Program-made: the position numbers and the translations under genes | Notes under the pieces: generated by a model | What the model saw: the letters and a program-made list of their open reading frames with translations, nothing else | The model's database searches: none | Told to the model about the DNA's origin: nothing | NCBI GenBank assembly: GCA_021811435.1 | Contig: JAJZOR010000004.1 | Coordinates: forward strand, 1 to 64,000 | DNA: 64,000 nucleotides | Source of the DNA: Microcaldota archaeon | GTDB taxonomy: Archaea; Micrarchaeota; Micrarchaeia; Micrarchaeales; Micrarchaeaceae | Direction of reading: 5' to 3' | Part shown: positions 7,280 to 63,135 of the stretch, one piece after another | Layout of the letters: each line of letters starts with the position of its first letter | Numbering within the stretch: the stretch's first letter is position 1

Positions 7280-7297
7280 GAAAACCAGGCAGTTATC

Positions 7298-7561
7298 TCA
7301 GCTTTTGGCCTTCTTGGCTGCGCGGCCGCGTGGCGGCCTGGATGCGGTATCGCCAGCCGCAGCGACATTATGCTGCGCGGCGGCTTCCGTTGCCGCCTCC
7401 CTTGACAGCATGCGGGTGTTCAGCAGGCCCACTATTATAGCAAGGGCTACGACGACATAGAATGCGATTCCGCCGCCATAATATATATAAATGACTATTG
7501 CGAATATTGCAAGTAACACTGTCGCAAGGGACATGCCCAGCTGGATTGACCGGTCGTCCAT
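7298..7561 (-). CDS. Small two-helix membrane protein
   Basis: The family is not recognised. The 87-residue product has two hydrophobic segments (about residues 8-28 and 31-47) and a hydrophilic C-terminal tail ending in a basic cluster (RPPRGRAAKKAKS). It is first in an apparent operon with topA and trmI. Its 5' end overlaps the upstream promoter region of the divergent transporter pair, since a TATA-like run lies at 7479-7490. Confidence 0.65.
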   Translation of the reverse strand: MDDRSIQLGMSLATVLLAIFAIVIYIYYGGGIAFYVVVALAIIVGLLNTRMLSREAATEAAAQHNVAAAGDTASRPPRGRAAKKAKS

Positions 7562-55140: not shown

Positions 55141-55725
55141 TCAGTGCGTGGACTTTAGAGCTAGTGTAGCCACCTTGGCCCAGTTCGTTGGAACGCCACC
55201 CTTGCACGGGCCCAGAGTGCAGTATGTCACCCACACGTATCCGTAGAACGGAGTCCCTATCACAGGTCCGATCGGCATGCCGCCTGCCACAGTCAGTGAC
55301 CCAGTCCCGCCGAACGAGACCGGGTATATCTGGCCGGACTGCAACGTCCCAATCGCAACGGCGTTGGTAGGTGTGGAACCGCCATGACTCATGTTGAACG
55401 GCACGCCTATCACTTTAGCGCTACCAGAAGTAAGGTTCTCACCCTCCTGTGCGACGAACACGTTGACAGAGTAGAATGTCTGCCCTGTGTTCTGGCCGAA
55501 CGAGAAGTTTATGAACGACCCGGTAGTGCCGTTAGCACTGAAAGTCGGAGTAGCACATATGTATCCGGATTGTGCTATGCACGCCTGTGGTGTTCCGCCT
55601 GAGCCGAACACTCCTAGCTCGAATAACGCCGCCAGGACCACTGCTATTATCAAGATGGCCCATCCGTAGGTCATCAGGTATTCCATAGCGCTCTGTCCTT
55701 TTAGCGTCTTTTTGTTGTGTATCAT
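55141..55725 (-). CDS. Class III signal-peptide type IV pilin
   Basis: A small pilin (194 residues). The leader MIHNKKTLKGQSAMEYLMTYGW is followed by a 22-residue hydrophobic helix (AILIIAVVLAALFELGVF), matching the class III (QxxxEY) type. The outer domain has the ACIAQSGYICATP motif with two Cys, SFGQNTGQTFYSVNVFVAQ, and a C-terminal CTLGPC then KVATLAL. It is paralogous to the first part of the large protein at 1416. It has its own strong promoter and terminator, so it is probably the major pilus subunit. Confidence 0.85.
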   Translation of the reverse strand: MIHNKKTLKGQSAMEYLMTYGWAILIIAVVLAALFELGVFGSGGTPQACIAQSGYICATPTFSANGTTGSFINFSFGQNTGQTFYSVNVFVAQEGENLTSGSAKVIGVPFNMSHGGSTPTNAVAIGTLQSGQIYPVSFGGTGSLTVAGGMPIGPVIGTPFYGYVWVTYCTLGPCKGGVPTNWAKVATLALKSTH

Positions 55726-57280: not shown

Positions 57281-57445
57281 ACATTTGATGGACCGCGATG
57301 CGAGCGCGGTCCGTTCTTTTTCTTACCCCATTTCGCATGGGAAGCGTTTATATACTTATAACATTTGATGTATTCTAAGTTGTCTGGTGGCTTCACGGCT
57401 TGGATGCGCGCCGGTCGATAAACTTTTTATGGCTATGATGATTGG

Positions 57446-57796
57446 ATGGGGGACTCTGATTCGATTGAAGGGGCACCTATCCAGGATGAAAAGTCCTACG
57501 AGCGAAGGTTAGCTGCCTATTCAAAGAAATTTGAGGATGAAGGCGGCGATTTACATGGCACAGATCCGATAGGATATGCATTGGCTGTGCTGAGCAATGG
57601 AAGGACAATAGCAATTGCGCGCAAGCTCCCCAATTTGGTAGCACGATTTGACTTGTGCATAAGAAAAGTAGAGGACTACAAAGCTACAGGACATCACAAA
57701 TTGGACGATTACGTGATAGGGATACTTGACAGCGCATTTGAGGGTGTAGATCACCGTTTCGAAGAAGCGGCACACTCCCCTAGGTTTATCGCATAG
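57446..57796 (+). CDS. Unknown small protein before the transglutaminase-like gene
   Basis: No family was recognised. The 116-residue product is acidic at the start (MGDSDSIEGAPIQDEKSY), then helical (YERRLAAYSKKFEDEG), with IAIARKLPNLVARFDLCIRKVEDYKA and LDDYVIGILDSAFEGVDHRFEEA. No signal peptide or membrane helix is seen. A TATA-like box at about 57423-57431 places transcription start near the ATG, so it is probably leaderless. It is 11 bases upstream of the next gene. Both are visibly AT-richer than neighbouring genes. Confidence 0.6.
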   Translation: MGDSDSIEGAPIQDEKSYERRLAAYSKKFEDEGGDLHGTDPIGYALAVLSNGRTIAIARKLPNLVARFDLCIRKVEDYKATGHHKLDDYVIGILDSAFEGVDHRFEEAAHSPRFIA

Positions 57797-57806
57797 GTGT
57801 TTGCTA

Positions 57807-59213
57807 ATGGGATTGAATTCCACTATAAACGTGAAAACTTTTCAAGACACAACGCGATTGGTAGAGTACCTTAAAGCACAAAAAGATGACGTCGTACATG
57901 TAGACGTGATAAAGGATTGCATGTCTGGCGATAGCATGTTCAAAAGCCGCCTCTCTTTCGAACGCTATATGAACTCGGATGGAAGCATTGGCGGCTTCTT
58001 CGAGAGCGGAAAGGTAAAACTTGATAGTTTACACAATTTCATATCGCGTGCTGCAGTACTTATCGGTAACATAGCACTGAACGAAAGCGTAATAGGTGAG
58101 AATGCTACAATAAACGCAGGCGAAGGTGCAGCAATCAACTTTTATAAATCTAAGGTAGACGGCACAGTAGCTGTAGAGTATGGTAACGCTTATATAACCA
58201 ATTCTCTCATAGAGCGAAATGCATCCATAAATTGGACAGGGGGAAGCGCAGCTACCGAGGCGAAACTTGTTATAAAAGATTCGTCTGTTGGTACTCCGCT
58301 TGGCTTAACAGAAATAAGCATTTCGAATGCAGATCTTAACATAATAAACTCACAAGTGGAGAGTGATATATCAGCTTCATTCTCACTGCGCGGTAAATTT
58401 AATGTCATCTCATCGTTTGTACCAAGAGGAGCGCGACTAAAAGATTACAATACGCTTACCAGTAGGCTTGATTCGCTCAAATCTAGATACGAGATAACAC
58501 CGAATTTTAGAGCAGATGTAAAAGGGATTGCATGCCTCAAGCAGGGTTCATATAGATGGGTAAAAAACTTAGTGGTATACGACTTAGGAAATGATAAAAT
58601 AAACGACACTTATTACATTGAGTTATCATCGAATGACAACGAGGAAGCCAGAAAACTTCATAATGATATGAAGGTAAAGTGCCATACGCTTGAGGATGAG
58701 ATTAGGCAGAAAATATTAGAGTTTTCAGACGGCGATAAGATTTCGAAAGAGATCTTGGAAACTGCAACTCTATTGGCTAAAGGCGTGTACCAGGAACTGC
58801 GATATGACGATAGATGGGAGAGTTATATAAAATCAGAGTACTTAGACAGGCAGCAGCATGTAATACCATTTGCAGAGATACTGAAGAACAGAAGAGGTGT
58901 ATGTCATGAGAAAGCTTTGCTCCTTGAGATGCTGATAGAGATGGAGAATGAGGGGAGGGATGAAAGTAATATTATAACTTCCAAGTTTGTTGAGGGTACA
59001 GTTAAAGTAGAGGGAAACAAAGAGGGATACGGCCATGCATGGGTGGAATTGCACTTGCCTAACGGTAAAGACGTCATAATTGACCCGACGAATTGGCCGT
59101 ATATGTATGGTACGTACAATGACACTATGCTTACGGATCGGCATAAAAATGTGAAATACGAAAGAAATGACAGGATGAATGCGTTGGTGATAGACGCACA
59201 GCCGTTGTCTTGA
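57807..59213 (+). CDS. Beta-solenoid-like protein with C-terminal transglutaminase-like domain
   Basis: From ATG 57807 (MGLNSTINVKTFQ) the product is 468 residues with no signal peptide. The middle (about 75-205) has short repeated strands (LIGNIALNESVIGENATINAGEGAAINFYKS, VEYGNAYITNSLIERNASINW, KLVIKDSSVG) like a beta-helix or bactofilin-type fold. The C-terminal part has a transglutaminase-like triad region: NRRGVCHEKALLLEML (Cys), GYGHAWVELHLPNG (His) and VIIDPTNW (Asp). The catalytic role, whether protease or cross-linker, is unknown. Codon use is AT-rich. It forms a pair with the preceding small gene. Confidence 0.78.
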   Translation: MGLNSTINVKTFQDTTRLVEYLKAQKDDVVHVDVIKDCMSGDSMFKSRLSFERYMNSDGSIGGFFESGKVKLDSLHNFISRAAVLIGNIALNESVIGENATINAGEGAAINFYKSKVDGTVAVEYGNAYITNSLIERNASINWTGGSAATEAKLVIKDSSVGTPLGLTEISISNADLNIINSQVESDISASFSLRGKFNVISSFVPRGARLKDYNTLTSRLDSLKSRYEITPNFRADVKGIACLKQGSYRWVKNLVVYDLGNDKINDTYYIELSSNDNEEARKLHNDMKVKCHTLEDEIRQKILEFSDGDKISKEILETATLLAKGVYQELRYDDRWESYIKSEYLDRQQHVIPFAEILKNRRGVCHEKALLLEMLIEMENEGRDESNIITSKFVEGTVKVEGNKEGYGHAWVELHLPNGKDVIIDPTNWPYMYGTYNDTMLTDRHKNVKYERNDRMNALVIDAQPLS

Positions 59214-62913: not shown

Positions 62914-62919
62914 AAAATT

Positions 62920-63010
62920 CGCCTTGGCCGGGATTCGAACCCGGGTCACAAGCGATCTGTCACAAAAGGTGTTGACAGGCTCGTATGCTAGACCGCTACA
63001 CTACCAAGGC
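62920..63010 (-). tRNA. tRNA-Asp (GTC) with an 18-base intron
   Basis: The acceptor halves GCCTTGG (63010-63004) and CCAAGGC (62927-62921) pair over 7 bp, the discriminator is G, and no CCA is encoded. The anticodon stem CGAGC/GCTTG encloses CTGTCA plus C after removal of 18 bases (62972-62955). This is the canonical 37/38 intron position and the anticodon is GTC. The intron contains TGACAG complementary to CTGTCA in the exon, as needed for bulge-helix-bulge splicing. The T arm is CCGGGTTCGAATCCCGG. Confidence 0.93.
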
Positions 63011-63135
63011 ATCAGATTAAAAATGTGCGACATTAACAGGATAAATGTCCTGTGTCAAGTCATACACTTTAAAGGTTTAACATTTAAATAGATTATCGGA
63101 CTGACTTTTTTCTTGTAGGCCCGTAGAGCGGTGTC

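Follow-up and report, generated by a model that had tools for sequence, protein, structure and literature searches.

The window, that is the whole stretch of 64,000 nucleotides analysed here from an assembly of about 1.1 Mb, carries a two-gene unit that is real, accessory and co-inherited, and that joins a new protein architecture to a new family of small proteins on known folds. The first gene encodes a small, predicted all-helical protein (family A2) and the second a fusion of a likely beta-solenoid with a transglutaminase-fold domain (family A1). The locus comprises the following features, of which the hairpin and the TATA box are predictions from the nucleotide sequence:

57289..57318, + strand: hairpin and T-run (GGACCGCG...CGCGGTCC, then T-rich), which would end the upstream glutamate dehydrogenase gene
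57347..57354, + strand: candidate archaeal TATA box TTTATATA for the pair
57446..57796, + strand: small gene, encoding the 116-aa, predicted all-helical protein of the new family A2
57807..59213, + strand: large gene, encoding the 468-aa solenoid and transglutaminase-fold protein
57957..58001, + strand: conserved cap motif FERYMNSDGSIGGFF (consensus FxRHxNPDGSxGGFV), found likewise at the start of stand-alone solenoid proteins in other Micrarchaeota
58035..58466, + strand: probable beta-solenoid region (model residues about 76-219), from the model and profile comparison
58632..59105, + strand: transglutaminase-fold domain with helical lead-in (model residues 275-432), from profiles, model and fold matches
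58902..58904, + strand: codon of the putative catalytic Cys, motif GVCHEKALLLE (invariant column C365)
59034..59036, + strand: codon of the putative catalytic His, motif GHAWVEL (invariant column H409)
59082..59084, + strand: codon of the putative catalytic Asp, motif IIDPTNW (invariant column D425)

Both open reading frames were found at these coordinates, on the same strand and about 10 bp apart. ATG 57807 is the likelier start of the large gene; the frame is also open from TTG 57801, which would add two residues. The pair is located between an upstream gene and a downstream gene that we take, from our own reading of their sequences, to encode glutamate dehydrogenase and type 2 IPP isomerase (idi2), respectively. 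On its left the extra DNA starts at the hairpin or beyond it, the exact ends of the insertion not being fixed; in genome G002 a comparable hairpin and T-run precede idi2. A weaker AT stretch (57420-57433) also lies ahead of the small gene, and boxes resembling TTTAAATA/CCTTAAATAC occur 5' of the small gene in several other copies. The largest Kyte-Doolittle mean over 19 residues was 1.33 for the large protein and 0.93 for the small one, hence no hydrophobic segment was recognized in either. Both are accordingly predicted as cytoplasmic proteins free of membrane segments, in agreement with the location proposed in a preliminary description of this DNA. Elsewhere in the window, ARAGORN with default settings called a tRNA-SeC(tca) at 62919-63011 (- strand); with introns allowed it gave a tRNA-Asp(gtc) with an 18-nt intron in the anticodon loop, and the selenocysteine assignment was rejected. 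A pilin-like protein (MEYLMTYGWAILIIAVV...) is encoded at 55141-55725 (- strand), and relatives of its gene are located close to several further copies of the pair.

The C-terminal part of the large protein is modelled with a papain/transglutaminase fold. The transglutaminase-like order of Cys, His and Asp that had been noticed in the preliminary description was found in all three motifs: Cys365, His409 and Asp425 are unchanged in 12 of 12 full-length relatives aligned end to end, an invariance that argues against a chance occurrence of the motifs. At E<0.1, the Pfam profile Transglut_core matched all 12 members and DUF553 11 of them (best E 6e-7 and 4e-8). The isolated domain of the window copy scored just under the curated cut-offs (22.2 vs 23 for Transglut_core, 19.5 vs 20.5 for DUF553); the paralogue G003_C21 (locus L120) lies above that for DUF553, with 35.2 bits vs 20.5. 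AlphaFold2, given 12 sequences, yielded a model with a mean pLDDT of 68 (mostly 73-90 over residues 281-400), in which an alpha/beta start leads into consecutive short strands and a linker of poor prediction quality connects these to the enzyme domain. Foldseek matched this domain to TglA (probability 1.00), to an entry containing LapG (0.97) and weakly to vasohibin (up to 0.63), and profile comparison linked it with the stand-alone transglutaminase-type proteins of the phylum (E 2e-19). The papers searched included none on transglutaminases of Micrarchaeota. As transglutaminases, proteases, phytochelatin synthases and acetyltransferases all belong to the superfamily (PMC4866520), the fold by itself leaves the reaction unfixed.

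The N-terminal region is likely a beta-solenoid of the YdcK/hexapeptide type with an NPDG...GGF cap. It aligned with stand-alone Micrarchaeota solenoids carrying the cap FxRHxNPDGxxGGFV (hhalign E 8.4e-15, probability 98), some of which match the Pfam YdcK solenoid or Hexapep profiles and the YdcK structure. Much of the hhalign score comes from the cap motif, and the hexapeptide periodicity is weakly significant (p=0.02 for the window copy, p=0.006-0.22 for the members, and also p=0.006 for the window's control region), so the assignment is likely and not proven. The solenoid part of the model has a modest pLDDT of about 60-78 and no good match in the PDB. The beta-strand solenoid anticipated in the preliminary description was thus retained and its possible affiliation with bactofilins was not, since no A1 member matched the bactofilin profile at E 0.1. 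The N-terminal beta-strand region has the support of both AlphaFold2 and the profile comparison, and the layout as a whole, a solenoid joined to a transglutaminase-like domain, is supported. Elsewhere in the phylum the two domains occur as separate proteins, and the large protein is a fusion of both. The domain types are known, but their combination appears undescribed; the searches placed the full-length protein in no housekeeping family, in line with the earlier view that no named family has this layout. From the fusion it can be predicted that capped-solenoid and transglutaminase proteins may also act together where genomes of the phylum encode them separately. At L105, L106 and L107 (genomes G053, G207 and G209), two capped solenoid genes are adjacent to each other, and the conserved neighbourhood around them includes genes for proteins of about 395 and 318 aa.

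The small protein is predicted to be entirely helical (model pLDDT 85), and its N-terminal helix is shared only with the copy G004_C11. The conserved residues of the family cluster in a polar G-H-x-T-L-D loop between helices 3 and 4. Several copies end in Lys-rich tails; the window copy has no such tail, and the alignment contains no invariant Gln or Lys. Searches of Pfam, PADLOC and the PDB, the last by sequence and by fold, returned nothing convincing, the top fold matches being generic helical bundles, and one paralogue gave a weak match (E 0.011) to a PHROG of unknown function. A derivation of the small protein from the large one, as a detached piece, was rejected. The family A2 appears undescribed and represents a concrete orphan family awaiting assignment.

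Full-length members of the large and small families were found in six of 301 Micrarchaeota genomes, with no genome containing one family alone; four of the six are from one genus, one is from another genus of the family and one from another family of the order. The scan of genome contigs relied on short conserved patterns, which could miss distant relatives; the relatives found by name all belong to Candidatus Micrarchaeota. A small gene adjoins 11 of the 14 large genes on the same strand, the two overlapping slightly or being separated by no more than 27 bp. It comes first in 10 of these 11 pairs, the order being reversed in G049, and the adjacency is kept across three genera. Within-family distances of the large and small proteins correlate (r = 0.96, Mantel p 0.0001, 11 pairs), and the two trees agree in their well supported clades. 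The expectation that the small gene travels with the large one was thus confirmed, if not invariably. Three large genes (G001_C12, its orthologue G003_C21, and G003_C3) are intact without a detectable adjacent partner, hence the partner is not essential for all large genes. Conversely, two small genes stand without a large gene, the intact G003_C12 and the pseudogene G001_C5; what might be the remnant of a large gene next to the latter gave too weak a match to be claimed (E about 1e-3).

Two of the copies call for caution. The 4.7-kb contig G000:C3 (L038) is 99.4% identical in DNA to G003:C1 (L044) over 4.5 kb, and may be misbinned or recently transferred because the glutamate dehydrogenases of G000 and G003 are 88% identical. 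The contig with the G031 copy, 4.5 kb long, belongs like G003 to the sampling series FK3 and bears the same risk. Without these two copies, four genomes of one genus and G049 remain. No third gene is generally conserved in the neighbourhoods, SIMPL-domain and pilin-like neighbours recurring in some loci only, and no small-family homologues were found beside stand-alone transglutaminase or solenoid genes. Related HerA-like ATPase genes lie within a few kb of both the G004 pair at L040 and the orphan small gene of G003 at L045.

Both gene families are under purifying selection. NG86 estimates of dN/dS were about 0.13-0.21 in four unsaturated comparisons of the large family (0.18 for the orphan pair) and about 0.05-0.17 in three of the small family; the window copy stands outside these figures, its nearest relative being too distant for dS. 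Up to four diverged copies of the large gene occur in one Micrarchaeota genome, and their persistence under purifying selection in genomes of about 1 Mb suggests that the unit is probably useful to its host.

In four congeneric genomes the flanking genes directly neighbour each other, with gaps of 72 bp (G002), 72 bp (G004), 89 bp (G003) and 6 bp (G001) compared with 1,988 bp in the window. Given these empty sites, the pair represents an accessory cassette of about 1.9 kb. It was either gained in the window genome or lost in all four congeners, and the low GC content (0.41 in the large gene and 0.47 in the small gene, vs about 0.55 in the surroundings) favours gain. The empty sites, the low GC and the co-occurrence in relatives are in keeping with the transferred two-gene module suggested in the preliminary description. 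Its argument from base composition holds for this pair but does not extend to most other paralogues, which have a higher GC, the low value being mainly a trait of the window subfamily. The pair has a single close relative (45-47% identity), likewise AT-rich and located at another site in G004. The search for insertion ends brought up short repeats only, and none of these, as repeat or target duplication, bracketed the pair convincingly. No homologue was retrieved from viral contigs with A1 or a small paralogue, from plasmids with the large protein or from phages with a paralogue. At L041 in G004, where about 5 kb separate two diverged pairs, a transposase-like fragment (7295-7558, - strand) is located directly 3' of a large gene.

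With a confidence a little short of even, we tentatively read the pair as an accessory operon for a cytoplasmic enzyme of transglutaminase fold together with a small helical protein dedicated to it. The Cys would attack a peptide or side-chain amide, most likely as a protease or amidase and possibly in transamidation, and the solenoid may serve as an oligomerising or target-binding scaffold. The small protein would bind the large one as cofactor, chaperone or inhibitor and would set when the enzyme acts, in the way that vasohibin of the same superfamily depends on SVBP. A wider and rather unlikely proposal is a so far undescribed archaeal system of protein modification or proteolysis, in which a scaffolded cytoplasmic transamidase or protease works with the small helical protein as carrier, substrate or switch and has spread as a duplicated cassette within Micrarchaeota, relatives in the phylum using the two domains as separate proteins. 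The enzyme might instead cleave, deamidate or crosslink the small protein itself, building or releasing a small polymer or signal, with the GHxTLD loop or a Lys-rich tail perhaps as the modified site. The tight co-inheritance of the families, the conserved polar loop and the Lys-rich tails of several copies would suit such a substrate, but a fixed crosslinking site would need the invariant Gln or Lys that the family lacks, the tail is absent from the window copy and three large genes have no detectable small neighbour; we consider this role unlikely.

A function in defence or conflict, with an accessory protease released when a phage or plasmid attacks and the small protein as its sensor or brake, seems quite unlikely. 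PADLOC models match neither protein, in the window or among the paralogues, no homologue was found in viral contigs, phages or plasmids, and the neighbourhoods examined hold no visible defence genes, even if such a module would fit a patchy, accessory cassette of low GC whose site is empty in four congeners, the presence of several diverged paralogues in each small genome and a transposase-like fragment abutting one G004 copy. The preliminary description had also considered a toxin and immunity pair. A toxin-antitoxin or toxin-immunity function with the large protein as toxin would agree with the small-first order of 10 of 11 pairs, the size of the partner and the accessory distribution, but is improbable: 3 of the 14 large genes are intact without a detectable partner, which disfavours an obligate unit, two of them (the orthologues) are under purifying selection with a dN/dS of about 0.18, an orphan small gene (G003_C12) is likewise intact, and the order is reversed in G049. 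Protection could still come from other small paralogues in G003 and G001. Lastly, long branches and a limited genome set leave some room for unrelated genes joined by shared history, the large one being a fast-evolving structural solenoid with a vestigial enzyme domain; the adjacency in 11 of 14 loci and three genera despite an order reversal, together with the invariant triad, makes this very improbable.

Among known proteins, the large protein shares the Cys-His-Asp order and the fold of Transglut_core (PF01841) and DUF553 (PF04473), but it lies just below both cut-offs, is fused to a solenoid and is paired with a small gene. The best structural matches of its enzyme domain are TglA from Streptococcus pyogenes (PDB: 9crn) and LapG (in PDB: 4u65), with 12-13% identity and without a demonstrated counterpart of the solenoid or the small partner. 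Its N-terminal region is linked to the left-handed beta-solenoids of the YdcK/hexapeptide type (PF18836, PF00132; PDB: 2f9c/2pig) through the stand-alone capped proteins of Micrarchaeota, some of which match PF18836. In contrast to these solenoids, the large protein has far fewer clean repeats and an additional enzyme domain, and no solenoid family of Pfam matches the window copy itself. Vasohibin with SVBP and the bacterial CPR-C4 affiliate with the same superfamily, the Foldseek match to vasohibin being weak. Vasohibin works with the small helical partner SVBP (PMC9108980, PMC4866520), to which the small protein may be likened by analogy only. The triads of vasohibin (Cys-His-Ser/Leu) and CPR-C4 are non-canonical, whereas that of the large protein is the canonical Cys-His-Asp.
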